From the NCBI GenBank assembly GCA_963920765.1, contig OY987242.1, positions 24,018,002 through 24,082,001 on the forward strand: a stretch of DNA of 64,000 bases, given 5' to 3'. Under the pieces are notes generated by a model. The model was not told where the DNA came from and did no database searches. It saw only the letters and a program-made list of their open reading frames with translations. The stretch comes from Ulota crispa (lineage: Eukaryota; Streptophyta; Bryopsida; Orthotrichales; Orthotrichaceae). Made by a program: the position numbers and the translations under genes. This document shows, piece by piece, positions 2,367 through 54,691 of this stretch; positions within the stretch are counted from its first letter, which is position 1; every line of letters begins with the position of its first letter.

Positions 2367-3019
2367 TTAACCCCTCATTGCCCATGGTATTTTTGCGTAT
2401 CTTAGAATTTTCTTGAAAGTGAACAAAATGCCAGTATTTTGATCAATCTTATTGATTTTCTCTAATGCGCAACCGTACAAATTCAAAGTAGACATGTTGT
2501 AGATCACATAGGAAAGAAATCACAACAATATCATTTATGGATTGAAAGACTATAATGTTTGATCATAAGGGTGTTAAAACTACAAAAGCAATTTGAGGCC
2601 TTTCAATCCTCTTTGTGCATCTCAAACCTAAAATTGAGGGTACCAAAAAAATATGAGTGTATAAAGTATAACATGCATAACCCCAATCAATTTACAGCTT
2701 CTCAAAATCTATTCTACAATTTTTTAAATTGAATTTTTAATGTGATTTGTTCTCCAAGTTCTAATGTACTTGAGGCTCATTTCTAAGAGCCTTCAACACT
2801 AGAAAGTGAAGATTTGCAATGGACACCCTTGCACAAAATCTTGAATAGACAAATTACTTTAAGTCATTTTCAAAATCTGCCTCCTAATGCTAAAACTAAA
2901 CTTCAATAAGAAAATTAAAAATTATAACAATCACTAAAAAAATCTTGAAGAAAGGTCGTACATCTCTATATAAAATTTAGAGGGGCCCAATTTGAGCCCC
3001 TTGGACGGTGAGGGGTTAA
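2367..3019 (+). mobile_element. TTAA element, family Q (653 bp)
   Basis: The element is bounded by TTAA on both sides (2367-2370 and 3016-3019). The left end CCCCTCATTGCCCATGG pairs imperfectly with the reverse complement of the right end, CCCCTCACCGTCCAAGG. The interior is homologous along its length to 40453-41105, which has the same total length of 653 bp. No ORF of note, so it is non-autonomous. Confidence 0.85.
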
Positions 3020-4619
3020 GGAGACCCCTTGAAAAGGATTGTTAGGGGCCTTGTGGAGGGCTCATATTTTTGCTAATGATCTCAAGGAAATTCTTTTGCA
3101 AAAGAAAGCAAGGCTAAATATACGACTGAAGCAATGAGTACGGAGGTCCAAAAACCATGTAAGAAAAACGGTTGAAATTTGAACCAATCGTATCAGAATT
3201 GGCTATACTTTTGAAAATCTTCAATTATAGTAAAAGTACATACTCAATATGCATGCATTAAACAAATTTGTTGAAAATGAGGAATGTTCAAATTTTACTA
3301 AGCAAGCTCAGAATCTCCCCAAACACAGTGAAACAACCAATTGGTTTTCGAAACGTCCAAGCAAATCAAGTTCCAAGCGTCCAAATATTGATGTAGTAGA
3401 AGGTACCTTCTCGAACTAGAAGTATAAGGGCAGCTCCTACAAAGAGCAAATTTACACTTTTAAAAGTATCTTTTAATTTACAATAGCCCACACAATTAAC
3501 CAAGGTTGCCCTATACATCACTTTTTTTGTATTTTTTTTTTACCTAATTCAACTTTTTTTTAAATTTTATATGCTTCATTAATCTAATTTGAGTTAGAAT
3601 CCTATAAAAGTTCAATGAGAACGATGAGGCAAACTCAAAGGTTTTTTGATTGATTATTCATATGCTACAAAGTAATGGTATGTGACAAAGAAGCTACATT
3701 TACTCCAAAGATCATAAATAATAATTCAAGAAGTGTTTTGATCACCAAAACAATAAAAGATGCATACAAAATGTCAAGATATATACGTATCACTAGATGA
3801 AGAAACATGCAAAACTTAGAGAAAAATAAAAATAAAAAAATCAATAAACCTTCAATGTTTAAGTACATTGAAAATCCATATTTGCATGAACAAATCCATA
3901 TTCACTTAAATGTGCCATAAACCAACCTTCTAGCAACATCTACTACAAGCGTGTTCCACAAACTTGTCAATTCCATTGCCTAAAACAAGTTTATTTTTCC
4001 ATAATTGAGATTTTTCTAGCATCAGCTACTTAAAACAATTCTGTGTACTAGAAATATAATGTAGATACTTTTTTATTACAATATATAAAAAAAACCTTTG
4101 ACATGTAATACTAAACGCCAATTCATACGCAAAAAGCATATGAAGATGAATACTAATCCACGTGTCAAATTTACTTGTAAAAATATCTAAGCATTATAAA
4201 TATTCTTTTCTAAAGCTCTAGCTCGCTCCAAAAACAGGCAAAAGTTGGAAAATACCATCAGTCAATATGAACCAACTTCATGACAACACATGAACTACAT
4301 ACGTCCATGGTGTTTATTCGAAATGTTGTTATTTAGACTACCTTCAAGATCAACTTGGTTATTTACTAATTTGAAGGAAGCCAAAGTAAGTACCATTACA
4401 CGGGTATCTATTTTTTTTTAATGACGTCATTACTTGCTTCTAGAGAAAGCAGCTCGTCAAATGCTTGCAGTAACTTAACTTATCACCAACTTCGCTTGAA
4501 GCTAACTAGGAGACGAAGCCAACGAACGTTGGACGTCTCAGTCGTCCTCACCAACTTCGTCGTCGGTTTCATCTTCGTCGTCGCCATCGCCTTCGTCGTT
4601 GTCATCGTCTTCTTCGTCG
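3020..4619. other. Intergenic AT-rich stretch
   Basis: No convincing gene, RNA or complete mobile element is seen. It lies downstream of the minus-strand gene that ends at 4620. Confidence 0.4.
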
Positions 4620-5261
4620 TCACCACTCGCTATCGTCGCCATTGTCTTCGTCGTCGGTGCTCGTGCTGCTTTTGCACTTACATGTTTTGCTGGACGTCGA
4701 TGAAGGCCCTGGAGATGGTGCTCGATCTGATAAAATGTATCGGGAAACTGATTCAGTAGTTGCATCATTTGTTCCCTGTGCAGAAGCTGGAGGACCTGGT
4801 GCCGGAGACGGTACCGGAGTTGAAGGAGATGGTGCTGGAGAAGGTGAGTGACATTTGCAACGTTTATTTTTCTTCTTACCTTTGGGTTTCTTCTTCTGGG
4901 ATTTCCCGTTCTTGGAAACCTTGGTGCTTCCACTAGACTTTTCACCTAAGAAACGCTTCATCACTTGAAAATACTGCGACAGAGCCGTAGCATCCGAAGT
5001 GGAGTCCTCGTCGGCTATGGCGTCCGGGATTGAGGTCAGAGCAACTCCGCGCTCTCGATCTCGATCGAGAGAGTCATAATCAGCTGCAAGGACATGCTGT
5101 ACTGCCTTCGCGGATTCTTCCGTCCTTCCGGAGTCGTAAGTTGCAACGGCGCTGCTGCCACTGTTGAAGAGGGAGTCACCTGGTCTGGCACTTCCGAGAG
5201 CGGCCAGGGAAGCTTAGACCAGCAACAGGACTGCCGTCGCGATTGTCATCTTGGAGGTCAT
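4620..5261 (-). pseudogene. Secreted Pro/Ser/Lys-rich protein gene with an in-frame stop in the signal peptide
   Basis: Read from the ATG at 5261, the frame stays open to a TGA at 4620 except for one TAA at 5214-5216. The first residues, MTSKMTIATAVLLLV, then stop, then ASLAALGSARPGD, look exactly like one signal peptide split by the stop. After it come an acidic spacer, a Lys-rich stretch (KSQKKKPKGKKKNKR), a CKC pair, a Pro/Ser/Ala block (SPSPAPSPSTPVPSPAPGPP) typical of arabinogalactan-protein-like modules, a second CKC, and an acidic tail. About 213 codons. If the stop is real the gene is disabled, or translation starts inside, for example at 4961, giving a protein without a secretion signal. 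An alternative is a 5'-UTR splice: CCAGGTACGT, a good donor on the minus strand, lies about 40 bases before the ATG. A TATATATAG lies near 5395-5406. Function not identified; cell-wall or surface role is inference. Confidence 0.6.
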
Positions 5262-5262
5262 G

Positions 5263-6960: not shown

Positions 6961-6966
6961 GAAGGT

Positions 6967-8332: not shown

Positions 8333-8639
8333 TTAAATAAATCATTAAAATTTACAAACATCAAAATACTTGTTTGTGCCAAAAGTCTAGACCAAATACT
8401 TTGAAATAGTAGAATGTACTTGATTGTCTAGAACTTCAAATCTATCATTTACTCATGAACTTTACAATATTGAAAGGTTAACAATGTTAAGACCAAACTA
8501 CTATAACATACTCCAAAGCACACTAAAACACCAAGTTTTTTTTTGGTGTTAATTTAAAAAATCGTGTAAGTATTAGTTTGTCATTGCCTTTTTCTCAAAT
8601 CCATAATGTAATAACAACCCTCAAATCGTCCACAGCCGT

Positions 8640-11301: not shown

Positions 11302-11651
11302 TTAACCCCTAATCATCCAGGAGGACAAAAATTGTCCTTTTAGTGCCAAAAAAACACTAGGAAGGTGGAAAGAACAGTTATTTTCAAATTTTTTTTCAAA
11401 GTGGTCACCTAGATGTTCTCCATCATTAAATGCAAAAATAGCTGCCTTGAATGCTCCCACATTTTTTTAAAGTCCAGTTTGTGAAGAGATGTCTAGGGTC
11501 CTCTATTGCCCCTCTTACGATTTTCATATGGGCAGCATGCACTATTCACTTTTGCAACCTTTTTGGAGAATATTTTATTGTGGGGATAGCATTGTACATA
11601 GCACTGTTCACCGGGCAGGCACGATTATCACCTTCAACATTTAGGGGTTAA
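11302..11651 (-). mobile_element. TTAA element, family B (350 bp)
   Basis: TTAA at 11302-11305 and 11648-11651. Ends CCCCTAATCATCC and ACATTTAGGGG. The interior resembles 24497-24863 in reverse orientation. A further TTAACCCTTAAACG at 11222 suggests an older end just outside. It shares its right TTAA with the next element. Confidence 0.7.
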
Positions 11652-12374
11652 CTCCTAAAGGACCAAGTGTCCCCTTGGGGAACAAATGGGATTTTGGGCT
11701 TCTCCTTATGGCTGTACTACTTTGGGTAAGTTTTTGAAACTTTTATGGAAGATGGGGAATTCAAAGATCTATGTGGGCATCTAATTTTTACCTCATTCCA
11801 ACATTTATTGAAGAAGTTAAAAATGAATTTATAGGAATTTTTGTTTGGCGGGCAATCCAAAAACTTATTTAAAATTTCCATTTTTTAAAATAAAAATTTG
11901 AGGTTAGTTCTTTAGACTTATGTATAAGTGGATAGCTTTGAATCATTCAATTCTAATTGATGAGATGAAAGTTATGAGAAGTTTTAGTTCACTAGTAGGT
12001 GTGGAAAATCTCAAAACTATACCTACTCGCAAACTAAAACCTCTCAAAACTTTTATCTCATCAATTAGAATTGAATGATTCATAGCTTTCCACTTATATG
12101 TAAGTCTAAAGAACTAACGTCAAAATTTTACTTTAAAAAAGTGCAATTTTTTAAGAAGTTTTTGGGCTGCCCGCCAAACAAAAATTCCTATAAATTCATT
12201 TTTAACTTCTTCAATAAATGTTGGAATGAGGTAAAAATTAGATGCCCACATAGATCTTTGGATTCCCCATCTTCCATTAAAATTTCAAAAAATTACACAA
12301 AGTAGTTTAGCCTTAAGTACATGCCCAAAATCTCATTTGTCCCTTGTAGGGACATGTGGTCCGTTAGGGGTTAA
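11648..12374. mobile_element. Palindromic TTAA element made of two family P ends (727 bp)
   Basis: TTAA at 11648-11651 and 12371-12374. The left half (to about 12000) and the right half (from about 12020) are inverted copies of the same family P end, so the element folds into a hairpin of roughly 350 bp per arm with a short loop. Full-length P copies have different halves, so this copy is an inverted-duplication derivative. Confidence 0.88.
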
Positions 12375-12736
12375 CCCTTAAAGGATGGATGGATCATCGT
12401 GGCTTGCCCTACCTGTAGTAGTCTACAGTACTTTGCACATGGACACCAGTAGTATTGCTTCAAAAAGTTGGAAAAGTCAACAGTACATGGTGCCCTTATG
12501 AAAATTGCAAGAAGGGCAGCTTGGGAGCTAACACCATGTTTTTGAATCTTATCACAATTTGGGTTACAAAAAAAATGAATGCATCTCAAGAGGTAACTTC
12601 TTGTCTTCCATGATAAACCATGTGTTATGGTCACTTCTGAAAAAAATCAGATGAAAAAAGACTTTTTTCTCAATCACAAAATCTTTTTTCAGAGCCAGAG
12701 GATGTTTTTTTGTCCTCCACAACGTTTAGGGATTAA
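12371..12736 (+). mobile_element. TTAA element, family B
   Basis: It begins at the TTAA that ends the preceding element and reads CCCTTAAAGGATGGATGG. It ends ACAACGTTTAGGGA followed by TTAA (12733-12736). The interior is about the same length and sequence as 24497-24863. Confidence 0.8.
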
Positions 12737-12839
12737 GGGTTAACCTTATCCATGCACCACTCTAGTAGAAAGAGAAAAAAAGAAAAGAAATAGATGAGAC
12801 AATGCAAAGCGCTGATAAGGCCTACTTGTAATTGGCAAG

Positions 12840-12991: not shown

Positions 12992-13347
12992 CTAGCCCCT
13001 AAACGTCGGCACAGACGAAAAATATCTATTGTCTCCAAAAAAAACTCTGTATTCCAGAAAAAGATTGATTTTTATCTCTATTTTTTATAGAAGTGATCAT
13101 AAAAGCATAGTGCATCATGGAAGGCAAAAACTTACCTCTTGAGATACATTCATTATATTTTGTAACCCAAATTGTGATACATGGTGTTAGCTCCTGAGAT
13201 GCCCTTCTTGCAATTTTCATAAGGGCACCACGCACTATTGATTTTTCCAACTTTTTGAAGCAATACTATTGGTGCCCATGTGCAAAACACTGTAGAATGC
13301 TACAGGCAGGACAAGCCACGGTGACCCATTGGTCCTTTAAAGGCTAG
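12992..13347 (-). mobile_element. Family B element flanked by CTAG instead of TTAA (356 bp)
   Basis: The body is a family B copy in reverse orientation. The left end reads CCCCTAAACGTCGG and the right end GGTCCTTTAAAGG. The flanking 4-mers are CTAG at 12992-12995 and CTAG at 13344-13347, a perfect duplication that differs from TTAA at the outer bases only. Confidence 0.8.
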
Positions 13348-19227: not shown

Positions 19228-19921
19228 GAAAAGGCTTTATAGGAGATAACTACCTAGCGTGGTCAACTTGAAAGGCTAGGAGATACATAATAGACCAAAC
19301 CAGTACCCCCATAGCACCTTAACATGACTCCATTACCTTACATGTGATACATAATGAGTTCAAAGAAACTTTGAATTCAACTCAAACAAAATCAGTTAAA
19401 AAAAAAAAAAACTTGTACCCATCAAGGCATCAATAAAATTTTCATCTACTGATTTGAAAATAAAACAAAATTACCAACCATCAATTGCATTGTTAGGATC
19501 GTCAATTCAACCGCTATAGTAGAAAGCATTCTATCCATGCAACCGGACAGTGGTTTAGTAGGTAGAGAGATTTATCAGATAGTAGATTGCTGAAAACAAG
19601 CTAAAAATAGATGGAGCCAAATCTCACATTTAATCACACGCTGACACATTAGCAAAACTCAAGTCCGCAACAGCTACGGGTGTATAAAATTGTAACTAAC
19701 CACTGCTTATGGAGTCTGAGTGCAACAAATTGTGTGAAAGTTTTACTTTGAAAGCAATAAAGCTGGGAATGGATAGACCAACCTGGCTCCTAAACCCTAC
19801 ACCCTAAACACCAAAACCTCAAGGTCTTCACAATTCTTCATAAAATTCACGACACTGAACCCCAGTCAAATGTCATAAAAACCTTAAATCAACATGAACT
19901 TGCCACATTACTGCACCCTCG

Positions 19922-21713
19922 TCAATCATCTTCTTCAGCAGCGTCTTCGTCCTCAGGGACACCTCTAAGGTACATGACATTGTTACATCTGCAAATACAA
20001 GGAAGACTTCAGAAGGCATCATCTGGAAAGGCGAAAAAAAGGCAAGAAAATTAAAGGTTTTAAAACAACTTTTCATACTATTGTATATGGAAACAAGGAG
20101 CACAAATATAGAGGAGATATGCATGAGGGATATGGAAAAGCTAGACCTGATCAAGACTTCTCCCAAGTTGCCAGTAAATGCCCCATCCACATGCTCCTCG
20201 GTGCTTGCTAGCTGTCCACCACACAAAAAAAGCAAATATTCAAGGAGCTCGTAGGATCATCAATCAAAATTAAACGCCAAATTTTATGATTACCGTGTAA
20301 TGCACAATGCGTCAAAAAACAACAGGGAGTCCTTTATGACATTGTATTTGTGAAAACTTCACATATGAATGTGTTATTTTTGTAAGGCCAGTTAAGTTCA
20401 AACATATAGAAAATGGTTTTGATTATTTACGTCCAAAGTTATTCATTGTTTAAGTCGTGGATATTTTAATATTGACATATGTGTGCATTAACTTTGCATT
20501 TGGCACAAATTGTGACTTGACTTTCTCGAACTTGCAAAAGCATTACTTGCGATAATGTCATATGCCATGTGGCGTTTTCCCAGATATTATGTTTCATGTA
20601 TGATTTTAGGATTTAGATAGACCACTCTAAGCATGCCACTCATCAAAAGCATTTGCATTTGCACAACCTAATAAAGGTGCTCTAGGTTCAATTTGGATTC
20701 ATTCAAAGATCAGTGAGAATTTGGAACTAGTAACTTACCTGCAGATTCATATAAGAATCAACTGATACCAAATACCCTGTATTTCAGGAATCAATTGAAA
20801 CGATCCTCATCAGTACAATGGCAAAACCCCAAACCACTCATGCATGTAAGTTAGAGGTACCTAAATGCAACAAATACCTACGAATAAACCCTAAAATCAT
20901 GGACAATGAGAAAACATTGATTTTAAGAATATACACCATCGAGAACCTGTGTTAGTTAGTTTTAGTCCATCCTTTATAACTTTGCATACAGTATATCTGA
21001 ATAAGACGTGGTCAATTGGAATGCTCTTACACTTGCTTACTATAATCAATGAAGTTTCTATCATTCTAACAAGAATTACATTCAGCACCTCGCTCAAATC
21101 ATAAAATCCTAATATCTGTACAGTTAGGGTTTAAGGAGAGTTAAGGGGCACAGTAAATTACAACTTTTTCATACAGTACATCTGAATAAGACGTGGTCAA
21201 CTGGAGTGCTCTTGGAATTGCTTAATATAGTCAATGAAGTTTCTATCATTCTAATAAGAACAACCCTCATCACCTTGCTCACATTATCAAACCCTACTTT
21301 CCATGCAATTAGGGTTTTAAGGAGGGTTAGAAGGGAACACAGTAAAATTTCCCAGTATCACTCTTGCAACGACTCCGAAATGCAAAAGAATAAAAGAAGA
21401 AAGAAGAGATATAACGTACCTTTGTACTCCATGCCCCATTTCAGTTTCACGATCACAGGCTTTCCTGTCAAGTCGTTAAGAAAAGGCTTGGGATTCACCG
21501 GAACAGTCTACACGAGGACTCGGCAACAATGAAAAGCCAAGGTCAGTCAGATTCTTCGTAATCGGAAACGAATACAAAACAAAACGAGCTTGAAAGAAGC
21601 ACACTCTCCATAGTGAAGGCCGAAAGATTTCAAATTCTAGAGCAAAACAGAGCGAGGAAAAAGAAATCTCGAAGAACTGAAAGAGGAGAGAGAGATGGAT
21701 GGCTCACCGCCAT
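19922..21713 (-). CDS. SmF: Small nuclear ribonucleoprotein F (Sm core protein), copy 1
   Basis: Five coding exons on the minus strand: 21708-21713 (ATGGCG only), 21420-21507, 20739-20776, 20147-20211 and 19922-19988, together 264 nt for 87 residues plus TGA. All introns are GT-AG and the phases join without correction. The protein starts [20 protein letters not shown], continues [45 protein letters not shown] and the Sm2 motif [10 protein letters not shown], and ends in an acidic tail [10 protein letters not shown]. This is full length for the family. SmF is one of the seven Sm proteins that form the heptameric ring on U1, U2, U4 and U5 snRNA. The two-codon first exon fixes the start: ATGGCG followed by GTGAGC. 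Intron 2 (20777-21419) contains two tandem 185-bp repeats. The encoded protein is identical to that of copy 2. Confidence 0.96.
20985..21350. repeat. Two 185-bp tandem repeats in SmF copy 1 intron 2
   Basis: Units start at 20985 and 21170 with CATACAGTA(T/C)ATCTGAATAAG and run to a TTAGGGTTT(A)AGGA block. The paralogous intron has five units. Confidence 0.88.
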
Positions 21714-24496: not shown

Positions 24497-24863
24497 TTAA
24501 CCCTTAAAGGATGGATGGATCACCGTGGCTTGCCTTGTCTATAGCAATCTATAGTGTTTTGCACATGGGCATCAATAATATTGCTTCAAAAAATTGGAAA
24601 AGTCAACAGTGCATGGTGCCCTCATGAAAATTGCAAGAAGGGCAGCTTGGAAACTAACACCATGTTTTTGAATCTTAGCTTAATTTGGGTTACAAAAAAA
24701 AATGAATACATCTCAAGAGGTAATTTTTTGTCTTCCATGATAGATCACGTGTTTATGGTCACTTCTAAAAAAAATCAGATGAGAAACGACTTTTTTTTAA
24801 ATCACAAAATCTTTTTTTAGAGCCAAAAGACGTTTTTTGTCCTCCTCAACGTTTAGGGGTTAA
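24497..24863 (+). mobile_element. TTAA element, family B (367 bp)
   Basis: TTAA at 24497-24500 and 24860-24863. Starts CCCTTAAAGGATGGATGG and ends CAACGTTTAGGGG. It is the cleanest copy of the family (others at 12371, 11302 and 12992). It lies within the left side of the foldback region 24270-25960. Confidence 0.88.
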
Positions 24864-25142: not shown

Positions 25143-25900
25143 TGATAGAGTATAGATGGCATTTTCTTGTCTTAGCATCACAGCTTTGTAATTCTTGTGC
25201 AATCCTGATCAAGCATACCAAATTTTGTTTCCAAAAAACCTATATCCCATTTTTGATGAATGATTTTGTATTGAATTCATCATTTTACATGGTAAATGAT
25301 TGACAAACATTGGTGATGAATTTTTAAGATTTGATTGCATGGGTATGTAGGAAACATCCATATCCACATCTTTCCTTCTTACAAACATCTTCAAAAGTTT
25401 TAAAATTTCATCAATAGAAATTTTAATGTTGAGGTGATCATGACCGAATTTAAAAAAATAGATATCTCACTATGATAATTATACTTTGTTATTTAACTCA
25501 TACATTATGATTAAGTTTGAACCTTTGAGCATGAAGGTATATTTATTTTGCCAAGATTTAACAAAAAATTTGATATATCTATTTTTCTAAATTTGGTCAT
25601 AATCACCCCAACATTAAAATTTCTATTGATGAAGTTTTGAAACTTTTGAAGATGTTTGTAAGAAGGAAAGATGTGGGTATGGATGTTTCCTATATACCCA
25701 TGCAATCAAATCTTAAAAATTCATCACCAATGTTTGTCAATCATTTATCATGTAAAATGATGAATTCAATACAAAATCATTCATCAAAAATGGGATATAG
25801 GTTTTTTGGAAACAAAATTTGGTATGCTAAATTAGGATTGCACAAGAATTACGAAGCTATGACGCTAAGACAAGAAAATGCCAACTATACTCTATATTGT
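25143..25900. repeat. Large foldback 1 (about 340-bp arms)
   Basis: The left arm (25143-about 25470) and right arm (about 25573-25900) are near-identical inverted copies; for example CTTTCCTTCTTACAAACATC appears inverted as GATGTTTGTAAGAAGGAAAG. A further 50-bp inverted pair (about 24272-24322 and 25895-25945) extends the stem outward, interrupted on the left by unrelated DNA and a TTAA element. Open frames across the arms are not genes. Confidence 0.88.
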
Positions 25901-25960
25901 GCAAGTTCTTTGACTTGCAAGATATGTAACTACCTATCTTTATTAACTAGTATTGTACAC

Positions 25961-26781
25961 TAACACTCTTACCATTCAAAGAATTTAGCACTTTAGAAAA
26001 TGCAATTGGCATTATTTTAGTTTGTGTCACTAATATTTAGTTCTTAGTAGCAATCCCAATCAAGCATATCAAAATTCAATTTCAAAAAACCTAAATCCAA
26101 ATTTTGGTGAATTATTTTGTACAATAACCATGGTTTTACAAGAAAATTGATTGAAAAACATTGATGATGAATTTTTGAGATTCAATTGCATGGATATTTA
26201 GGAAACATCCATACGCGCATTTTTCACACTAAAAAAAAATGCCTTAAGTAACAAAATTTTGATCCACAAAAATTTGAATGTGGCTTTTGATATGCCCAAA
26301 TTTTGTGGAATAGATATTTCTTTGTAAGAATCAAATTTTTCTACTTTACTCATACATTGTGACTAAGTTTGTACTTTTAAACTTGATATTATGTTTCCTT
26401 AGTGAAAACTTAGTTACAACATGCAAATATCTATTTCACAAAATTTGGGCATATCAAAGGCCACGTTGAAATTTTTGTGGATCAAAATTTTGTTACTTAA
26501 GGGGTTCCTTTTTAGTATGGAAAATGCGCGTATGGTTTTTTCCTAAATATCCATGCAACTGAATCTCAAAAATTCATCATCAATGTTTTTCAATCAATTC
26601 TCTTGTAAAATCATGGTTATTGTACAAAACAATTCACCAAAATTTGGATTTAGGTTTTTTGAAGTTGAATTTTGATATGCTTGATTAGAATTGCTATTGA
26701 GAACTAAATATTAGTGACACAAACTAAAATAATGCCAATTGCATTTTCTAAAGTGCTAAATTCTTTGAAGGGTAAGAGTGG
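25961..26781. repeat. Large foldback 2 (about 360-bp arms), diverged sister of foldback 1
   Basis: Arms about 25961-26320 and 26420-26781 are inverted copies. Arms and loop are homologous, but diverged, to foldback 1; both loops hold ACTCATACATT(A/G)TGA(T/C)TAAG. The stem ends CACTCTTACC / GGTAAGAGTG. Confidence 0.85.
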
Positions 26782-26985
26782 TAGAAAGGGGTAGCAATAA
26801 TTTATGTCCGGGTACTGTACTTTTATTAAATGTTGACAATTTTGAGAATTCCCTGACATTGTTGATATGTAGCGGCGTGCGTCTCTTCGGACTTTCTTCA
26901 ACCCTCTATTTAGAGTATTGATTTTATCTCGATTTGGTAATTGATTGAGGTTATCTTTCCTTCCTCTATGTTTTTGGATTAGTGA

Positions 26986-30209: not shown

Positions 30210-31168
30210 TTGACCCCTAAAGGCCTAAGTGGTCTATCGGGGGCCAAGTGGGGTTTCAAGCATGTACTTATAGTTAAACTACTTTATGGGATTTTCTGAC
30301 ACTTTTATCAAAGGTGGGGAATTCAAATATCTATGTGGGCATTTAATTTTTTCTTCATTCCAACATTTATTGAAGAAGTTATGCATGAATAATTGAAAAA
30401 TAAGGGAGAAGCGGGCAACCCAAAAAAAAGTTTGCTTTTTTTAAAAATAAATTTTTGAAATTGGGTCTTTAGATTTTTGTTTACGTGAGAAGCTTTGGAT
30501 CATTCAATTTTGATAGATGAGATGAAATTTATTAGAAGTTTTAGTTTGCGGGTAGGTACAAGACTCCCAAACCTCCATTTCTTTTGCCCCCTATAAAATT
30601 TGGTGCTTTACTTTTTTGAGCTCTTTGTATATTTTTTTTGACTTTTTTTTTCCCAAGTTGTAGTAGACTAAGATTCCTTGGTTTTCACCATTTGGATTAA
30701 AGTAATTCAAAGTCTTGAAGTTTACATAAATCCTCCAATTTTGCCTAGTGTATATGCAAATTTGATAACATTACAGCATTGCAAGATTTTACAAAGTATG
30801 ATTCACACCTCCAATTCATTTGAAATTTCTCCCACACATACCTAACTTGGTCTTCTCCATGGGAAAAAAAACCTAAGTTTTGTGTAGAGCAATTTTTTTT
30901 GATATAGAAGTAGTCAAAGGCTTCCAAAGTTTTTAGGCAGGAGGGAAAAAAACTTTTTTTTTTCATTTCAAATGTCAATATCTCATTCCTCTACATCTAG
31001 AATGATCTAATTTTTTTTTTCCCACAAGTATCTTCCATAGTCTAGGGCAAGATCTTACAGTTGGATTTTTGAAAAAAACTTTTTTTCCTACCATTCTACT
31101 TATTCCCCCAAAAGTGGCAACTTTTAGTGACTTTCATAGAAAAAAGGGCTTGGGCCTTTAGGGGTTAC
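30210..31168 (+). mobile_element. TTAA element, family P, flanks mutated (959 bp)
   Basis: Full-length family P copy starting CCCCTAAAGGCC and ending GGGCCTTTAGGGG. Flanking 4-mers are TTGA and TTAC, which look like decayed TTAA. Homologous end to end with 53752-54691. Confidence 0.82.
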
Positions 31169-32064: not shown

Positions 32065-32317
32065 CACGCCCATGGGGATGTGACGCCCATGGGATGTGAC
32101 GCCCATGGGGATGTGACGCCCATGGGGATATGACGCCCATGGGGATGTGACGCCCATGGGAATGTGATGCCCATGGGGATGTGACGCCCATGGGGATGTG
32201 ACGCCCATGGGGATGTGACGCCCATGGGGATGTGACGCCCATGGGGATGTGACGCCCATGGGGATGTGACGCCCATGGGGATGTGACGCCCTTGAAGATG
32301 TGACGCCCATGGATGCG
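32065..32317. repeat. 17-bp minisatellite, unit GTGACGCCCATGGGGAT
   Basis: About fourteen to fifteen head-to-tail units with few changes. Each carries the palindrome CCCATGGG. Because 17 is not a multiple of 3, three units (51 bp) give a 17-residue repeat in every frame, which explains the long Gly-Val-Thr-Ser-Pro-Trp-type minus-strand ORFs. They are not considered genes. Confidence 0.95.
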
Positions 32318-39432: not shown

Positions 39433-40332
39433 TTAACCCGTAAAGGACCATGTGTTCCTATAGGGACAAATGGGATTTTGGGTAGGGTCATGCTACTACA
39501 ATTTATGATCAAATTTTATATTTTTTTCTCCAAAGGTAGAGTTTTGTAAGAGTTATGGGGGAGAATAATTTTTATTGAACTTTGATTTACGGTTCAAAAG
39601 TCATAAGGGTAAACATGTGAATTTTAGTTTTAGTTGAAGGGGCAGCTTGGGCATGTCATATTTTGTTGACTTCTCCCAAGGGGAACCAATGAAGGGATGC
39701 CCCTCAATGGAATCTATCCAAAGCAATAGTGCACTAAATATATACTTTATTGTATTTGATAAATACATTACCCTTTGAATTGCAATAGTTATTTGAGATT
39801 TAGTTTTTTTTCTAATTTTCTTTCTTGAGATTGTCTATGATGCTAAACTCTTCCAATCCGCCGCTTGGATTCTTATATTCTTTAATATACTTTTAGTAAA
39901 ATTGGTTGGCAAAAAACCTCAATGTAGTGTGAATTTCAAGCACATGGGCCATGGAGGGTGTGTTCCAATAGTTCCATGTCTTGATTGATCATAAAAACTT
40001 GGAGAGATATGCCTAACATGATTTAGAGCATGTTAGACAAATCTCTTCAGCACCTATAGTGCAAAAAATTGTTCATCACATGTGGTCAAAGGCACTTGAA
40101 AGTTTTGGGCAGGGGTAAAAAAACTTTATGTACTACCTTCATATGGTCATATCTCTTGATCTGTATGGTTGAACTTCACAAAATTTTCATGGTATGTTTT
40201 TGAATGAGTTTACTACAAGATCCTAAAGTTAGGTTTGATCTTTTTTGAAAAAGATTTTTTTTGGGATCAAATCACTAGAAATGATAGTTTTGAGCGTTTT
40301 TTGAGAGATGTGCTTGGTCCTTTAGAGGTTAA
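39433..40332 (+). mobile_element. TTAA element, diverged family P (900 bp)
   Basis: TTAA at 39433-39436 and 40329-40332. Ends CCCGTAAAGGACCATGTG and CTTGGTCCTTTAGAGG. The interior is only partly similar to other P copies. Confidence 0.85.
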
Positions 40333-40452: not shown

Positions 40453-41105
40453 TTAACCCCAGAACGACATGGAAAATCCTGAGCTTCTAGGAATTTACTA
40501 TAGTTTGAACAAAAAGTCAACATTTTCATAAGTTTTATAAATTCTTTTTGAATTGTAACCATATAAAATCAAACTAGACATGTTAGGGATCATGTTAGAG
40601 AGGAAAACACAACAATGTCTCTTATGGATTGAAAGATTATAATGTTTGATCATGAGGGTGTTAAAACTGCAAAAATAACTTCAAGTCTTTCAATCCTCTT
40701 TTCACATGTGAAATCTAAAAAGTTGGTCACCAAAAATATATGAGGTTAAAGGGCCTAACATGCATAACCCCAATCACTTTATGGCTTCTCAAAATCTACT
40801 CTACAATTTTTTTGAATGAATTTTTAATGTGATTTTTCTCAAAAATCTAGTGTAATTGAGGCTCATTTCCAAGAGCCCTCAATACTACATGAAGTCAAGA
40901 TTGCAATGGACACCCATGCATAAAATCTTGAATAGAAAGATCATAATCAATAATTTGCAAAATCATATTGTTGAAACCAAAACTAAACTTCAATAAGAAT
41001 CCTTCAAAAACATAAAATATTAAAAAGAATAATTTGGTAAAGTTTTATTTTACTTCAAAAATTGATCAAAGACACATTCTGTTCTCAATGTTATTTTGGG
41101 GTTAA
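40453..41105 (+). mobile_element. TTAA element, family Q (653 bp), inside a 25-bp direct repeat
   Basis: TTAA at 40453-40456 and 41102-41105. Ends CCCCAGAACGACATGG and (complement) CCCCAAAATAACATTG. Same length and interior as 2367-3019. The sequence TTAAAGGATTGGTGATTTGG plus CCTTA stands immediately outside on both sides. Confidence 0.9.
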
Positions 41106-41546: not shown

Positions 41547-42094
41547 TTAACCCCTAAACGCCCAAGGGGTTAAGGGGAAAACATAAATGCATTCAAAAAA
41601 TATATTCTTGTAGCTTCAATGAAGTTTGTTTCATAAGAGAAAACAAGAATCATGATGTTTAGCAATTATCCATAAGGTCAAATATTCAAAAAAAGTTTTG
41701 TACTCTTGTATAATGAATTTAGAAGTATTTTCCATTTAATATTCATTAAAATTACAGATATTATTCACAGAGTTTAAAATTTGGTTTGATTGGTTAAAAT
41801 TTGACATTCTATTTAAAAGTTCAAAATGCAATATTTTTGATGGAGAGAACATCATTAGTTTTCTGCAATAGTAAATCTTGTAACACTAGCAAACATTGAA
41901 ATGTTTGTTTTTGAAAAATTCTCCTTGATGGAGTTTAACTTGAATTGACATGATTCAAATTGGGTTAGAAAGAAGACTTGCTTTCCTATATGAGAATATT
42001 TTTAATTTTTTCAAAAAAAATCTTTTTATATTTTGAGCAACCCGCAAAAAAAGGCAGCGACCAAAAAATGATCGATTGGGAGTTTAGGGGTTAA
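41547..42094. mobile_element. TTAA element, family S (548 bp)
   Basis: TTAA at 41547-41550 and 42091-42094. Ends CCCCTAAACGCCCAAGGGG and (complement) CCCCTAAACTCCCAATCG. Confidence 0.8.
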
Positions 42095-43594: not shown

Positions 43595-43830
43595 TTAACC
43601 CTTAAGCACCTGAGTGACAAGATCTTGTTGTTAGGGCCCATAACTTTATCTCACTTTTTCTCTTAATTTGTACGGTGAAAACAATCATGGCTGGTCCCCA
43701 TCAACAGAGAAATTAGTCATTTTTCAAATTCTACAATCACTTTTTTTGGATGTAATTTTCCAAACTCTAGTGGCCATTAAACCCCCCATTTTCTCCTAAA
43801 CCCTAAAACAACTCCAGGCGCTAGGGTTAA
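43595..43830. mobile_element. Short TTAA element, family T (236 bp)
   Basis: TTAA at 43595-43598 and 43827-43830. Ends CCCTTAAGCACCTG and (complement) CCCTAGCGCCTGG. Confidence 0.75.
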
Positions 43831-44907: not shown

Positions 44908-45704
44908 TTAACCCTTGAGCGCCCACAATGAAATCTAGAAAATGAGGCCAAGGAGGAGCATGCTCAAAAACATTGTTTGCTCTGAGTTGGGAACTTAGAT
45001 TAGGGAGGATTCACTGCTAAAATAGTAGAAAGGGTGCTTGATGCACCCAATCAAAAATTTGTAGAATTTTTGACCGCACCATTTCAGTGATTATATTAGT
45101 CAAAGTATAGTTGACTATGTGGTAACCAGCCAATTTTGGAGGGGTTTGTGGCTATGGATGCAAAAAATTCATGCCTTAGAGGAGGCTTCTTTTGATGAAA
45201 TTTAGACAGGAGGTGCAATTTACAAGTACCTCACTATCAAATTTGGTGATGATTTGACATCCACAAGGTGCTTTTTTGGAGGCCAAAAGTTGCAAGACTT
45301 ACACATCATGGTGGACGATAGATAGGATATAGGTTTGGCTTTGACCTCCAGAAGGGCACGGTTCCCGGTGGTACAAGTGCAAAATCCTTCTCTAGTATGC
45401 GGCGTGTGTGCCAAAACACCCCTAACAGTATGGAACTAGCCATAGCTGGTGGTCTCTATCCTTGCACCTAAACCCTAAATCACATAAAATGAATTTCTAG
45501 CATACTATTGTCATATTTGACTTGCACAATCCATACTTGTACAAGTGACAAAACCCCCATCGCCCATTATATGACATGAGAATAGTACCATACCCTAAAC
45601 CAAGTACAATTTTTTGGGCAGTACACTTTTGACTTGAACCTACTATTGTGAAAATTTTGATTTCGAGATGCCATATTTTGGCTGATGGGGCGGTCAGGGG
45701 TTAA
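44908..45704. mobile_element. TTAA element, family U (797 bp)
   Basis: TTAA at 44908-44911 and 45701-45704. Ends CCCTTGAGCGCCCAC and (complement) CCCCTGACCGCCCCATC. Copy 1 has the uninterrupted site CACCTTAACATGACTCC near 19317, with a single TTAA. Confidence 0.93.
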
Positions 45705-46485: not shown

Positions 46486-47840
46486 CTCCAATTTCCCAAG
46501 GATGTTTTTCTTGTTTTTGGAAGGCAGTTTTGAAGTTCTTGAATTGTCCCTATAAGATAATTATTAAACATCAAACCAAAATTGTAATAGTTGAATCTTG
46601 AATGCCAAAGCTTCTAGATGGCACTACCCAAAAAAATCCAAAATGGTCATTCAAATTTTAAGATATTTGTAATTGAATGATGATGAGTGTAGAATTCTTT
46701 GCTTTTTTGGAGCTGCCTAAAACTTCTAATGCAAATTGGTAACTTTTGGATACAAAACTAAAAAACAACCACTTAGGATGCTACAATGTTTTTTGTTGTT
46801 ACTTCAAAACTAATGGCCCCCCTTCCAAACTCATGACCACAATTTCACAAACGAGCTTGCAATGCAACTATCAAAGCGCAACCCTCTAATACAAAGAATT
46901 TTTTAGCTTTAGTTATTGACCAATAATCATTGTGAATGAAGCAAAACTCAACAATGAATGAATTCCAATTTGTATAACAAAATCACTCCAAGTGAAATTA
47001 GTCCAAAATCACTTTTAGATTTTGTTAGATGTCAAAATTTCAATAGAAAGGCCCTTGTTGCCCAAAGGAGTGTCAAAGGGAAATCTTCAACTTTTGCTCA
47101 ACTTGATACTCGTTTTTTCAATGTGGCAACTTCTCATAGGCTCTATGACACTATTCACAACACTTTTCATGACAAAAAATGTATGCTTGCGGTTAACCCC
47201 TAAAAGACCAGGCCCTTTTCTATGTGAAAAACATTGAAAATTGCCTCTTTTGGGGATGAAAGGAATGGTGATTTTTTTTTTGAAATCTAATTGTAAGATC
47301 TTGCTCTAGACAGTATGAGGTACTTGGGAAAAAAATGAGCTTACTCCAAATGAAAAGGAGTGAGATATTTACATGTGAAGTGAAGATAAAAGTTATTTAT
47401 TGTATCACTCGAGATTTTAGAAGCTGTTGACCATTCTTATATCAAAAAATTTGCTCTACGCAAAATTGAGGTTTTTTTTCCCATGTAGAAGACCAAGTTA
47501 GGTATTGTGTGGGAGAATTTTCAAATCAATTGGAACTATACAACACATGGGAATAAATAGTAAGTAAAAAGAAGTAGAGAATGAGTCAGATCACTAAATT
47601 GTTAAGAATTTAATTATTAAAACAAAAATGCAAATCCCAAATGTTATAATGTTGTGATAAACAATCTACATCCTTTGGTTTTGTTTTTTTTCCAATATGT
47701 TGGAAATTGAGTAATATAAAGGACTTCAAAGTTTATTTTTGAGTAGAGAATCTAGAATTGCCCACAAACAAAAACTCTTCATAACTTTCATCTCATTTAT
47801 CAAAATTGAATGATTGAAAGCTCCCCACATCTATATAAGT

Positions 47841-48873
47841 TTAACCCTTTAAGGACCACGCGACCATATTTTGGTCACTGGGAGTGGTTTTTGGCATGTA
47901 GGTTGAAATTGCTCAAAAATTTGAAATTTGGTCTTGAAGTATGCATGTGATCACAAGTATTTTGCGCCCATCTAAAAAAATAACAATGCAATTGGGTATG
48001 TGAGTTGACAAATAATGATGTTTATATGGCATGGCTTCAAAATTAATCCATTTTTTGTCAAAGATGGATCAAAGCAACAACACAATACATCAAACATCCA
48101 AGAAGAATGTCAAATTTCAATTGCACAATTCTAAAAAAATTCAAATTGCTTAAGAAATATGCTTGTATTGTTTTCCTATACGGTAGTAGTATAATTGTAG
48201 TATTTGAAGATCTACTAAAACGGTGTAGTCATTTTGGCTTTAAAATATGTCATCCTACATTTAAGGCCAATTCTTGATTACTTTCACTGATCGGATTTTC
48301 CATGACAATTATCAAATTTCTTGTAGAATTGTTTTAGGGTAGCAAAGAAAATGGGATTTTTTACCCTTTTTGTCCACTTAGCACCTTGTGATTGCTATTT
48401 TTGTCTATTTTGTGTGAAACTAGTCTTGTTGGAAAGGTGGGAAACCTTGCTTTTTAGAAATGTAAGGCTCTTTTCAATCAAAGCCTACATGAAGCAGTAA
48501 CATTCAAAACCACACAAGCATGAAACACTATAGATTTTTTGCATACAGCTCGCTCAATCATTATAATGTTTTACCTCCAACGGTAGATCTAGCTAAAATT
48601 TTGGTGCTTTAAAGTGAACAAGGTGTACCTCCCATTTGTATGGTTGGATCACTGAAAATGGGTCCATATTTGAGTTAATTGCACATCTAAGCTTACAACC
48701 CATAACCCCATATTTGATTAATATGGAGTTGTCAGTTATATATGGAGTGTATCTTGATCAACACAAAGTCTAGATACACTCCATATATAACTGACAACTC
48801 CATATTGATCAAATATGGGGTTCCATGTTTCTAGTGGATTTTGTGAAAATGGGTGTGGTCCTTAAAGGGTTAA
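47841..48873. mobile_element. Inner TTAA element, family W (1033 bp)
   Basis: TTAA at 47841-47844 and 48870-48873. Ends CCCTTTAAGGACCACGCG and (complement) CCCTTTAAGGACCACACC. The host sequence rejoins as AAGTTTAAAGAACC, matching uninterrupted P copies, for example near 12105. A 54-bp-arm palindrome lies at 48697-48827. Confidence 0.92.
48697..48827. repeat. Near-perfect palindrome inside the inner TTAA element
   Basis: Arms of about 54 bp, including CAGTTATATATGGAGTGTAT and its complement, separated by a short loop. Confidence 0.85.
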
Positions 48874-49495
48874 AGAACCTATTTCAGATTTTTATTTGCA
48901 AAAAATGAAAATTTTGAAGAAGTTTTTGGCTGCCCAAGGAGCAACATATTCTAGATTTTCATGCATAACTTCTTCCTTAAATGTCGAAATGAAGAAAAAA
49001 TTGCATTCCCACACAGATTTTTGAATTCCTCACCTTCAATAAAAGTTTCAGAAAATCACACAAAGTAGTTTAGCCATAGGTACATGCCCAAAATCCCATT
49101 TGTCCCCCAAAGGGACAACGATCCTTTAGGGGTTAATTGTCCACCAGAAACAATTGGAATAAGATATGAAGGAAATTAAATTTGAAAGGTAAAGCTAACT
49201 GCAGCAAGCAACAATTCCAAAATAAAAACCCAAAAACAATAAAATCTGTGCCTTCAACAGGGTTTCAAAGTTTTCTGAAGTTTTTTGAACACCAAAATCT
49301 GGAGCCTTGGGCATTTAGGGGTTAAAAGCAATAGAGCTGTGAGTAGATAGACCAACGTGGCTCCTGAACCCTAAACCCTAATGCCCAAACACCAAGGTCT
49401 TCACAATTCTACATAGAATTCACGACACTGAACCCCAGTCAAATGTCACAAAAAACCTTAAATCAACATGAATTTGCCTTCTAATTGCACCCTCG

Positions 49496-52400
49496 TCAAT
49501 CATCTTCTTCAGCAGCATCTTCATCCTCAGGGACACCTCGAAGGTACATAACATTGTTACATCTGCAAATACAAGGAAAAGTTCAGAAGGCAGCATCTGG
49601 AAAGACAAAAGTTAAGCCAAAAGAAAAGTAAAAGACTAAAAATTTGAATACCTTCTCGTACTACTGTATATGAAAACAAGGAGCAATATATAGGGGAGAT
49701 TCGCATAGAGGGATATGAAAAAGCTAGACCTGATCAGAACCTCTCCCAAGTTGCCAGTAAATGCCCCATCCACATGCTCCTCAGTGCTTGCTAACTGTCC
49801 CCCACAAAACAAAAGAGCAAATGTTAAGGAGCTCGTAGGATCATTAATCACAATTCATAGCCAAATTTTATGATTACTGTATAATGCACAATGCGTCAAC
49901 AACAAAAGGGTGTCCCTCATAACATTGTATTTGTGAAAACGTCATATATGAATGTGTTGTTTCTGTAAGGCCAGTTAAGTTCGAACATATAGGAAATGTA
50001 TGATTTTAGAATTTAAATAGACTGCTCCAAGCATGCCACTCATCAAAAGCATTTTGCACAACCTAGGGAAACAAGCTCTAGGTTCAATTTGAATTCATTC
50101 AAAAATCATGTGAGAATTGGGAACTGGTAAATTACCTGCAGATTCATATAAGAATCAACTGATACCAAGTACCCTGTTTTCCAGGAATCCAATCAAAATG
50201 ATCCTCATCAGTACAATGGCGAAACCCCAAACCACTCATGCATGTAAGTTAGAGGTACCTAATTGCAACAAAGACCTATGAATAAACCCTAAAATCTTGA
50301 ACAATGAGAAATCACTGATTTTCAGAATAAAGACCATTGAGAACCTGTATTAGTTAGTTTCTGACTATCCCTTATAGCTTTCGCATATAGTATATCTGAA
50401 CAAGACGTGGTCAACTATAATGCTCTCAGAATTGCTTAACATGATCAATGAAGTTTCTATCATTCTCATAAGAACTAAGCTCAGAACCTTGCTCAAACCA
50501 TAAGATCCAAACATCTGTGCAATTACGGTTTAAGGAGAGTTAAAGGGGACATAGTAAACTACAACTTTTGCACATAGTATATCAGAATAAGACGTGATCA
50601 ACTAGAATGCTCTTAAAATTGCTTTAATAAAATCAATGAAATTATTTTCATTCTAATAAGAACTACGCTCAGCACCTCGCTCAAATCATAAAATCCTAAC
50701 ATCTGTGCAATTAGGGTTTAAGGAGAGTTAAAGGGAACACAGTAAATTACAACTTTTGCATATAGTATATCTGAATAAGACGTGGTCAATTCGTATGCTC
50801 TTTAGATTTACTTAAATAAAATCAAAGGAAAATATCAAAAATAGGCCTGACTATTGGCCGTATTTCAAAAACAGTGTTCACAATTCAGAAATATCGAAAA
50901 TAGGCCTCATCTAGATCCTGAGTTTTTGTGGTTGATTTTCTTCAATTCCCAAATTCCCGAATCAATTTATGAAGGAACTTTTTCCGTTATTTTCTCTATT
51001 ACATATTATAAATATTGAATTATTAGATTTTCAACCGACTTTCAGCCAATGTTTACAAATCACAAACGGATTTTTCCCATTTCAATCGGCTAGCTTTGAA
51101 CTAGCTTTTGGTTCTTCCTAGACTGCCTCATCATATATAAAAAGTAGGTCCCTTGCAACTAAGGTGACCAAAATTTTGTGCATGTTTATTTATAGGAATT
51201 GATATGAGCACACCCGGGTTTGATATTTGCACACAAGGAGAGGGGTGAATTTTAGATATTTACCATCAACAAGCTGAATATGGAAATTTCAAATTCAAAT
51301 TTGGATTTCAAGACCTTGATTTAGTTCAGAACCACAATGGAGGTTACAATTGAACCACGCCCAATGGAAAAGCTTAGCTAGGGGGCACATTATTGCTTTT
51401 ACCTTTGTTTGTAAAAAAAGTTAAGCTTTTCCATTGGGCGTAGTTCAATTGTAACCTCCATTGTGGTTCTAAACTAAATCAAGGTCTCGAAATCCAAATT
51501 TGAATTTGAAATTTCCCATATTCAGCTTGTTGATGGTAAATATCTAAAATTCACCCCTCTCCTTGTGTGCAAATATCAAACCCCGGATGTGCTCATATCA
51601 ATTCTTATAAATAAACATGCACAAAATTTTGGTCACCTTAGTTGCAAGGGGCCTACTTTTTGTATGATGAGGCAGTCCAGGAAGAACCAAAAGCTAGCTC
51701 AAAGCTAGCCGATTGAAATGGGAAAAATCCGTTTGTGATTAGCTAGCCGATTGAAATGGGAAAAATCCGTTTGTGATTTGTAAACATTGGCTGAAAGTCG
51801 GTTGAAAATCTAATAATTCAATATTTATAATATGAGAAAATAACGGAAAAAGTTCATTCGGGAATTGAAGAAAATCAACCACAAAAACTCAGAACTGGGA
51901 TGAGGCCTATTTTTGATATTTCTGAATTGTGAAGACTGTTTTTGAAATACGGCCAATTGTCAGGCCTATTTTCGATATTTTCCCTAGAATCAATGAAGTT
52001 TCTATCATTCTAATAACAACTACTTTCACCACCTTGCTCACATTCTAAAACCCTAATATCTGTACAACTAAGGTTTAAGGAGAGTTAAGGGACACAGTAA
52101 ATTACAGATTTTGCTTATAGTATATCTGAATAAGACGTGGTCAATTAAAATGCTCTTAAAGTTTCTTAATATAATCAATGAATTTTCTATCATTCTAATA
52201 AGAACTACGCTCCGCAACTTGCTCACATTATCAAACCCTAATACCTGTACAATTAGGGCTTAAGAAGAGAAAGTGATACATTAAATTACAACTTTTGCAT
52301 ATAGTATATCTGAATAAGACGCGTCAACTGGAATGCTCTCAGAATTGTTTAACACAATCAATGAGGTTTCTATCGTTCTAATAACAACTACATTCAGCAC

Positions 52401-52840
52401 CTTGCTCACATTATCAAACCCTAATTTCTGTGCCATTAGGGTTTAAGGAAAGTTAAAAGAGGATACAGCAAATTTTTCCAGTATCAATCTCTCGCAACGG
52501 CTCCGAAATGCAAAAGAATAAAAGAAGAAAGAAGAAAGAAGAAAGACAACGTACCTTTGTACTCCATGCCCCACTTCAGTTTCACGATCACAGGCTTTCC
52601 TGTCAAGTCGTTGAGAAAAGGCTTGGGATTCACCGGAACAGTCTACACGAGGGCTCGGCAACAAACAAAAATCCAAGTCAGTCAGATTCTTCGCAATCGG
52701 AAACGAATACAAAACAAGACGGGCTTGAAAGAAGCACAACTTCGACAATGAAGACCGAAAGAGTTCAAATTCTCGAGCAAAACCGAGCGAGGAAAAAGAC
52801 GCACTAAAAGAAGAGAGAGAGATGGATGGCTCACCGCCAT
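49496..52840 (-). CDS. SmF: Small nuclear ribonucleoprotein F, copy 2
   Basis: Five exons: 52835-52840, 52555-52642, 50136-50173, 49730-49794 and 49496-49562, with the same lengths and phases as copy 1. The 87-residue translation is identical to copy 1, although codons differ (for example TTA for CTA at the start of exon 4, CTC for CTT, CGA for AGA and GAT for GAC in the 3' exons). All substitutions I find are synonymous, which suggests that both genes are under constraint or that conversion acts on them. Intron 2 (50174-52554, 2381 bp) is swollen by three extra copies of a 185-bp repeat and a 1159-bp hairpin element; its splice sites remain canonical. Intron 3 is about 190 bp shorter than in copy 1. 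Confidence 0.96.
50384..52480. repeat. Five 185-bp tandem repeats in SmF copy 2 intron 2, one split by a transposon
   Basis: Units start near 50384, 50571, 50759, 52114 and 52298 with CATATAGTATATCTGAATAA. The third is interrupted at 50826-51984. The intron of copy 1 has two units. Confidence 0.9.
50826..51984. mobile_element. Giant hairpin element, 9-bp duplication (1159 bp)
   Basis: The whole element is an inverted repeat, with ends AGGAAAATATCAAAAATAGG and (complement) GGGAAAATATCGAAAATAGG. Flanks TAAAATCAA (50817-50825) and TAGAATCAA (51985-51993) match at 8 of 9 positions, and the neighbouring repeat units show the empty-site sequence. Each arm is more than 500 bp. Mutator-like by duplication length. 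Confidence 0.93.
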
Positions 52841-53086
52841 GAGGAATGATTCGAAGTTGAAAGAGGGAAGTCGCGTTTGTTGATGAAGATGTCGAAGACG
52901 AAGTGCAGTGCTGGAAATCCAGTGCAGCCTTTATACGTTAGTTTCCTCAAGAAGAACGCTGCAGGCTACGATGAAGAGGGTTGCGAAGTGAGAAAAGGGT
53001 CCTAGAAGTGTGAAAAGGGTTCCAGAGGTGTGAAAAGGGTTCCACTAGTGTGAAAAGGATTTTACGATCAGTTCTTCTAAGCCTAA

Positions 53087-53392
53087 GGGCATCTCCACAA
53101 CTTCCTGAAAATTTTCCATCTGGTTTGGTGAGGTCTGGAGGCTCTCAATCTTCACCCATGCTCTTTGAAAGGTGGCCTTACACAAACACACCTCATAAAT
53201 AAGCAGTTGACCACTTATTTAGGAAAGTAGAGAATAAAACTCACTAAACTTAAGATGAATAGTGCATGAATAGTGGCTTGGAGAGTGGCTTGCTAGACTC
53301 GCCAAATAAGAGAGTTTAAGAGGGGCATGAGAGGGGCTTGGTTACTTTTCATCCACTTTGAGCGAGCCAGAGCCACCGGTGGAAATGCTCTA
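53087..53392. mobile_element. MITE flanked by AAGCCTAA (8 bp; hAT-like)
   Basis: Left end GGGCATCTCCAC and right end GTGGAAATGCTCTA are inverted. AAGCCTAA at 53079-53086 and 53393-53400. Copy 1 of the duplication lacks it (near 21900). An 8-bp duplication fits hAT. A related pair of ends is at 55421-55862. Confidence 0.82.
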
Positions 53393-53427
53393 AAGCCTAA
53401 AACCCCAAGTACTTCCTTACCCTCTAA

Positions 53428-53752
53428 AGGTAAGAGGCTCATAAACCAACCATCTAAGGGCTGAAACTAAATTTTGGGGAGGTAGAACTTCTTGAAATAT
53501 TTTTCAATAAAATTTCATTGAATGACAAGAAGAATTGACATCTAATCCAAGTTGTTTCATATTTTTTGGAGTTTTGTAGAATTAGTTATGAAATTTTGAA
53601 GCTGAAGTGGCATTAGGCTCTAAAACCGTTCACCTCCTCAAATGTACACCTTGTGTATATTTTAGAAATCAATGAAAAAAAGCATGTACATAGTGAGCAC
53701 ATTTTGGAGGGTAGCAATTTTAGAGCATGGATGATTTTCTAGCCTCTTACCT
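53428..53752. mobile_element. MITE of the AGGTAAGAGGC-ended family flanked by TAA
   Basis: TAA at 53425-53427 and 53753-53755 bounds ends AGGTAAGAGGC and GCCTCTTACCT. A TAA duplication would fit PIF/Harbinger, but other copies are not clear. It abuts the next TTAA element. Confidence 0.7.
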
Positions 53753-54691
53753 TAACCCCTAAAAGACTATTGTCCCTTTGTGGGACAATTGGAATTTTGG
53801 GCATGTACCTATGGCTAAACTACTTTGTGTAGTTTTTTGAAACTTTTACGGAAGATGGGGAATTCAAAGATCTATATGGGCATCTAATTTTTTCCCTCAT
53901 TTTGACATTTGACAAAGAAGTCATGCAAATTTTTTTGCTGTCTAAGGGTGGGAGGGCAATTTGGGTAGCCCAAAAACTTCTTTAAAATTTGTATTTCTTT
54001 AAATAAAAATCTGAAATTGGTTCTTTAGATTTTTTTATACGTAGGGAGCTTTGAATCATTCCGTTTCAATCAATGAGATGAAAGTTATGAGATGTTTTAG
54101 TTTGTGGGCATTTACAAATCCTATACTCTAAAATACACTTTGAAGTTCTATATTTTCCACAGTTTTCAATATTTTGGAAAAAAAACTAAACTTCAAGAAC
54201 TAGATTGTTTATTACAACATTATAACCATTGCAATTTGCGTTTTTCATTTCAATAATTAAATTCTTAACAATTTAGTGATTTGACTCATTCTCTACTTCA
54301 TCTTGCTTACTATTTTTTTCCCATGTGTTGTATAGTTCCAATTGATGTGAAAATCCTCCCACACATGCCTAACTTGATCTTCTACATGGAAAAAATAAAC
54401 CTCAACTTTGTGTAGAGCATTTTTTTTTTCCTGTCAGAGTGGTCAAAAGCTTCAAATTTTTTTGGATAGCACGGAATTACTATTTTTTTTTCACTTCAGA
54501 TTTAAATATCTCCCTCCTCTTCATCTAAAATGACTTGATTTTTTTTCCCACAAGTACCTCTTCTATTTTAAGGCAAGATCCTATGGTTGGACCCAAAAAA
54601 GAAAAATAAACCTACCTTCTTACTCATCCCCTAGAAGTGGTAGTTTTCAATGATTTTGACAAAAAAAAGGGCTTGGTCCTTTACGGGCTAA
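53752..54691 (+). mobile_element. TTAA element, family P, full length (940 bp)
   Basis: TTAA at 53752-53755; the right flank is CTAA (54688-54691). Starts CCCCTAAAAGACTATTGTCC and ends CTTGGTCCTTTACGGG. It serves as a reference copy for the family. Its left TTAA was provided by the end of the preceding MITE. Confidence 0.87.

Follow-up and report, generated by a model that had tools for sequence, protein, structure and literature searches.

Numerous TTAA-bounded elements with CCC ends in the genome of Ulota crispa, very probably non-autonomous piggyBac transposons

Which mobile system has filled one stretch of a plant genome with short elements that share their ends and little else? The question is raised by 64,000 nucleotides of Ulota crispa (contig OY987242.1, positions 24,018,002 to 24,082,001; this whole stretch is hereafter the window, and coordinates without a locus label refer to it), in which many elements have the layout TTAA-CCC...GGG-TTAA. 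The elements are, with high confidence, non-autonomous transposons of the piggyBac superfamily that resemble miniature inverted-repeat transposable elements (MITE) and were moved by piggyBac-type transposases of relatives of 5-6 kb. Genome engineering makes heavy use of piggyBac elements, whose known hosts are chiefly animals and some protists. The abundance of such elements, together with many transposase copies, is unexpected in a land plant, whereas it would be ordinary in an animal.

The shared ends are directly observed and are strongly enriched. The window has 18 copies of TTAACCC and 17 of GGGTTAA, whereas 60 Markov samples average 5.65 and 5.1. An end detector (an 18-base weight matrix trained on the window's own ends) finds 45 end-like sites above 11 bits, compared with a mean of 2.9 and a range of 0-7 in ten Markov samples; five of the 45 (21134, 50533, 50721, 52263 and 52446) fall in a tandem repeat of 183-188 bp and are not element ends. 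Pairing of the ends delimits 15 elements that total 9,795 bases, or 15.3% of the window. Fourteen are 236-1,033 bp long, and the remaining one, of 1,944 bp, holds another element inside. The same tetranucleotide stands on both flanks in 13 of the 15 (12 TTAA, one CTAG), while 30210-31168 (TTGA/TTAC) and 53752-54691 (TTAA/CTAA) have unequal flanks, which are not identical duplications. End agreement is weak in 43595-43830 (6 of 16 positions) and in 12371-12743 (9 of 16, with a disturbed 3' end). Unpaired ends at 258-, 647-, 11222+, 17737-, 49325- and 62023+ mark truncated or unpaired copies. Comparison of the delimited elements by blastn (E up to 1e-4, matches limited to the terminal 50 bases being ignored) gives eight interior groups. 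In 262 kb, 134 sites fit the 14 bases that follow the target (a matrix likewise trained on window ends); the four bases in front are TTAA at 79 of them, a one-base variant at 16 and another tetranucleotide at 39. The initial annotation had described about nineteen elements with at least seven unrelated interiors, bounded by TTAA or a variant of it and with CCC and GGG ends. The number is a fair count once the copies marked by single ends are added to the 15, and the interiors and borders agree with the present census. Of its size range, 240 bp to 3.2 kb, the 3.2-kb element was not confirmed.

Shared ends could also have arisen without transposition, through gene conversion or the recombination of a single satellite. 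The elements 2367-3019 and 40453-41105 fit such a process, as their interiors are 78% identical and their ends differ, so that ends and interiors either are exchanged or diverge unevenly. On the other hand, empty sites point to insertion. The joined flanks of 26 elements (14 from the window and 12 transposase-bearing candidates) were searched, and empty sites with a single TTAA-like target were found for five, two of which bear a transposase. The element 2367-3019 is absent from a 94% identical stretch of locus L017, and 44908-45704 is absent at window positions 19254-19402 (87% identity); one TTAA stands at each place. The insertion point of 47841-48873 reads CTAA in eight of nine matches to related copies of the 53752 family and GCAA in the ninth. 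The transposase-bearing element L016:1894-7201 (5.3 kb, flipped coordinates), with a duplicated TTAA, sits within a relative of 41547-42094, which itself has one TTAA. Finally, for L024:1896-6997 the empty site is in a relative within L026 (76% identity), where the target reads TTAG. The TTAA target is duplicated on insertion. Moreover, adjoining elements share a single TTAA junction at 11648-11651 and 12371-12374, and five more such junctions occur in 20 transposase loci, as expected if one element inserts into the border of another. The empty sites, with a single target and boundaries exact to the insertion, exclude satellite recombination or gene conversion as the main cause. Further evidence against it comes from nested insertions and from one family whose scored copies are spread over ten contigs (C1-C10), and such an origin is scarcely credible. 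An apparent empty site for L019 proved to be a match to its own 3' end and was dropped.

The initial annotation had noted no transposase in the window. The genome comprises 274.8 Mb in 157 contigs, nine of which measure 19-41 Mb, sizes that would suit a bryophyte but are no proof of one. It contains at least 120 matches to PF13843 (DDE_Tnp_1_7, the piggyBac transposase domain), all above the family cut-off. Scores were computed for 116 of the 527 first-look candidates, and a few copies are split into two pieces. The window has none of the matches listed, and a set of 14 control genomes yielded no match. The domain is present in six of seven open reading frames (ORF) scanned. The open frame of L009 (389 amino acids) matches the piggyBat structure 9c0f (2.6e-24) and the piggyBac structure 6x67 (7.6e-20), and its segments TVDE, VTDNFFTS and GVDIVDQ align on the catalytic motifs of both, with the aspartates aligned. 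The four catalytic aspartates, which we take to be D268, D346, D447 and D450 in piggyBac, are kept in 24, 20, 23 and 22 of 25 loci. Cysteine-rich tails were seen by eye in L012, L016, L017 and L020, and the tail of L017 has no Pfam match. A structure prediction from a seven-row alignment had a mean predicted local distance difference test score (pLDDT) of 37.7 and was not used. Over 5.2-5.3 kb, the transposase-bearing copies L016 (on C1) and L017 (on C2) share 89-93% identity; their alignment begins and ends exactly at TTAACYCC. Transposases with the catalytic motifs and with the same ends are thus directly seen in the same genome. The search for DDE_Tnp_1_7 that had been proposed with the piggyBac reading supports it, as it yielded both the PF13843 matches and a 5.3-kb element that carries a transposase, the same TTAA-CCC ends and a TTAA duplication.

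One transposase-bearing locus also shares sequence directly with window elements. The last 515 bases of L027 before its 3' TTAA match the last 525 bases of 30210-31168 at 71% identity (E 5.4e-70). The matching stretch lies 1.2-1.8 kb downstream of the transposase domain, and no MITE start was seen at its inner border. The same 3' end region also matches parts of 53752-54691 and of the elements at 47193 and 62023. In L003, of the same lineage as L027, 133 bases of 39433-40332 are matched about 1.35 kb downstream of the transposase domain. These matches suggest that the abundant CCCCTAAAGGACCA families may derive from the L003/L027 lineage. We infer that transposases of this genome moved the window elements.

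A further feature common to transposase-bearing and window elements is an internal palindrome. Among 95 ends above 15 bits (29 from the window, all outside the tandem repeat, and 66 from the 20 loci), 19 have at least six of seven complementary pairs about base 25, whereas each of 62 other centres is reached by 0-3 ends and a control of mixed halves gives 1.3%; the other 76 ends miss the threshold. The window accounts for five of the 19 (258-, 3019-, 11302+, 12374- and 47841+). When each end is searched for a palindrome at any centre, the signal is only mildly raised (12 of 50 ends score at least 6, versus 3.2% in shuffles), and several elements have the palindrome at one end only, which recalls the asymmetric ends of piggyBac. 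In the cryo-electron microscopy of piggyBac, a dimer of the cysteine-rich domain is described as bound to a palindromic internal repeat spanning bp 17-33, and the minor groove is centred at about bp 25 (PMC7351741). By analogy, the base-25 palindrome is probably bound here by a dimer of the C-terminal cysteine-rich domain of the transposase.

TTAA is also duplicated by Sola3. The elements could accordingly belong to Sola3 or Kolobok, the other superfamilies with this duplication, and the genome's piggyBac transposases be unrelated to them. The duplication alone fits this assignment, and no Sola3 or Kolobok model was searched. However, PF13843 is present in transposase-bearing elements that have these CCC ends, the base-25 palindrome is common to them and to the window elements, and the 3' end region of L027 is shared with window elements, which makes the assignment very improbable. 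The piggyBac systems known from other organisms agree in the TTAA duplication, the CCC/GGG ends, the PF13843 transposase with conserved aspartates and the palindromic internal repeat at base 25. They differ from the present case, in which many lineages and thousands of short copies occur in a plant-like genome, the ends read CCCYTAANGRCC and the letters of the palindrome vary between families. A cysteine-rich C-terminal tail is visible in some copies, with an alignment below significance.

The initial annotation had further proposed one transposase mobilising many non-autonomous families, and this part is not supported. In a query-anchored comparison, single linkage at 50% amino-acid identity sorts the 25 transposase loci into nine lineages, and the pairwise identity between loci has a median of 36% and a minimum of 27%. 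The lineages also vary in their ends, with CCCCA(G/A)AA in L020/L021/L026 and CCCTTT in L011/L013. Two window elements fit such variants clearly better, namely 40453-41105 with L020/L021/L026 (margin of 5 of 28 positions) and 47841-48873 with L011/L013/L018 (4 of 28). A single piggyBac transposase acting on all window families would account for the CCC-YTAA common to the ends and for the palindrome in some of them, for the 13 of 15 elements that lack a clear lineage, and for the six group-1 fragments and 39433-40332, all of which point to the L003/L027 lineage directly or via relatives. Nevertheless, the depth of divergence among the lineages and the two elements just named render a single source unlikely. 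Several transposase systems thus coexist in the genome.

For the non-autonomous piggyBac elements proposed here, the mechanism would be as follows. An element would be excised at the TTAA on either border and inserted into a different TTAA by DDD transposases of piggyBac type, whose genes lie in the relatives of 5-6 kb at other places in the genome. The recognition site of the catalytic end would consist of the first bases, CCC-YTAANGRCC, and the palindrome found in about one fifth of the ends would be the probable site for the dimer of the cysteine-rich domain. Several transposase lineages with slightly different ends would act side by side.

Several observations weigh against this interpretation. 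Internal stop codons are held by 110 of the 120 transposase matches listed, and ten have none. Convincing end pairs 5.0-6.0 kb apart surround the transposase in only seven of the 20 loci (L016, L017, L020, L022, L023, L024 and L026) and were picked by eye, where dense MITE make false pairs easy. For this reason, pairing by end similarity around transposases was rejected as evidence, and copy boundaries and empty sites were used instead. The tail of L020 aligns with the cysteine-rich tail of piggyBat at -0.2 bits, below significance. Apart from L027 and L003, the blastn matches are MITE copies that neighbour transposases and not transposase-bearing elements. A 5' end could not be located for L027, whose match could thus be a truncated MITE. 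By their ends, only two of the 15 window elements fit one lineage clearly best, the others falling within two positions of a tie. Since some of the 95 ends come from related copies, they do not count as independent events. Lastly, 12992-13347 is flanked on both sides by CTAG.

The elements extend far beyond the window. The exact 18-mer end TTAACCCCTAAAGGACCA occurs 7,555 times in the genome and its reversed control not at all, and it is absent from the viral contigs examined. The 727-bp family (11648-12374) has 40 scored copies out of 6,140 first-look candidates on contigs C1-C10; apart from the window's own, the scored copies are 84-89% identical and nearly full length. By this identity, the population of TTAA-CCC elements appears to be large and mostly old.

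Little of this kind is on record in plants. PiggyBac is listed among the angiosperm MITE superfamilies in one review (PMC10004981) and among the plant superfamilies in another (PMC10794571). The repeat table of the fern Ceratopteris gives 1,230 PiggyBac copies that amount to 122 kb, or 0.00% (PMC6890710), and that of the grass Stipa a single copy of 75 bases (PMC8319324). The share in these tables is thus near zero, compared with 15.3% of one window here. Among the literature matches listed, drawn from a library that lacks most subscription papers, none describes a land plant with a large piggyBac population. The chances are about even that, in a land plant that may be a bryophyte, piggyBac ranks as a leading cut-and-paste class, its nine or more transposase lineages living side by side, several using end variants of their own, and the base-25 palindrome rule being conserved with animals. 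A large and diverse plant population, if true, would extend the natural range of piggyBac and would offer many natural pairs of transposase and end for asking what sets end specificity. In addition, a palindrome fixed at base 25 would provide a simple sequence test for the piggyBac membership of orphan TTAA MITE.

Table 1. Elements and partial elements of the window, with their flanks and closest relations.
Feature	Position	Strand	Remarks
End part of element, 11648/53752 group	1..258	.	cut by window start
653-bp non-autonomous element	2367..3019	.	TTAA both flanks; 3' end has base-25 palindrome; L017 (94% identity) shows empty site
350-bp element	11302..11651	.	TTAA both flanks; palindrome at base 25 of 5' end
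727-bp near-palindromic element, 265-base arms	11648..12374	.	TTAA common to both neighbours
373-bp element	12371..12743	.	TTAA both flanks; 3' end disturbed; 89% identity to 24497-24863
356-bp relative of 12371-12743	12992..13347	.	CTAG both flanks, non-TTAA duplication
367-bp element	24497..24863	.	TTAA both flanks
959-bp element	30210..31168	.	flanks TTGA/TTAC; 15/16 end positions agree; last 525 bases match L027 3' end region, 71%
900-bp element	39433..40332	.	TTAA both flanks; full-length relative in L019; 133 internal bases match stretch downstream of L003 transposase
653-bp element	40453..41105	.	CCCCA(G/A)AA ends resembling L020/L021/L026 transposase lineage
548-bp element	41547..42094	.	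uninterrupted copy (empty site); L016 relative split by 5.3-kb transposase-bearing element
236-bp element	43595..43830	.	TTAA both flanks; weak end similarity, 6/16
797-bp element	44908..45704	.	TTAA both flanks; empty site at window 19254-19402
53752-54691 family copy	47193..49136	.	split by 47841-48873
1,033-bp element nested in 47193-49136	47841..48873	.	TTAA both flanks; ends resemble L011/L013/L018 lineage
940-bp element	53752..54691	.	flanks TTAA/CTAA; last 366 bases match L027 3' end region, 68%
Partial 53752-group element, about 401 bases	62023..62423	.	from sequence comparison with other elements

Some minor observations concern the elements and their transposases. The flanks of 12992-13347, a member of the 12371 family, may reflect the use of a non-TTAA target. 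The terminal variants of 2367-3019 and 40453-41105 differ despite their similar interiors, which would fit a faster turnover of ends than of interiors. In two cases, transposase matches of identical score lie 15-20 kb apart in opposite orientation (C7:18203169/C7:18223004 and C2:36765124/C2:36779670) and may be large inverted duplications or an assembly artefact.

The window contains other features as well. The segment 50826-51987 was tried as an empty-site case and rejected, being an unrelated foldback with direct repeats of about 9 bp (TAAAATCAA / TAGAATCAA) that is like a Mutator-like element (MULE). This long foldback sits in the tandem array of 183-188 bp, and a related array without it lies at 20974-21346. 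Two adjacent long hairpins of unknown class, 25145-25895 and 25960-26784, have arms of 325 and 380 bases that are 95% and 92% complementary, and no TTAA-CCC ends were seen on them. Rfam gave no match anywhere in the window at gathering scores. Proline-rich ORF resemble arabinogalactan proteins by eye and have no Pfam match; like the MULE-like foldback, they fit a plant host. The window also encodes eIF3g, which marks the genome as eukaryotic, and upstream of the eIF3g exon lies a 17-bp tandem repeat (32066-32312) with 14.6 copies and 94% matches.

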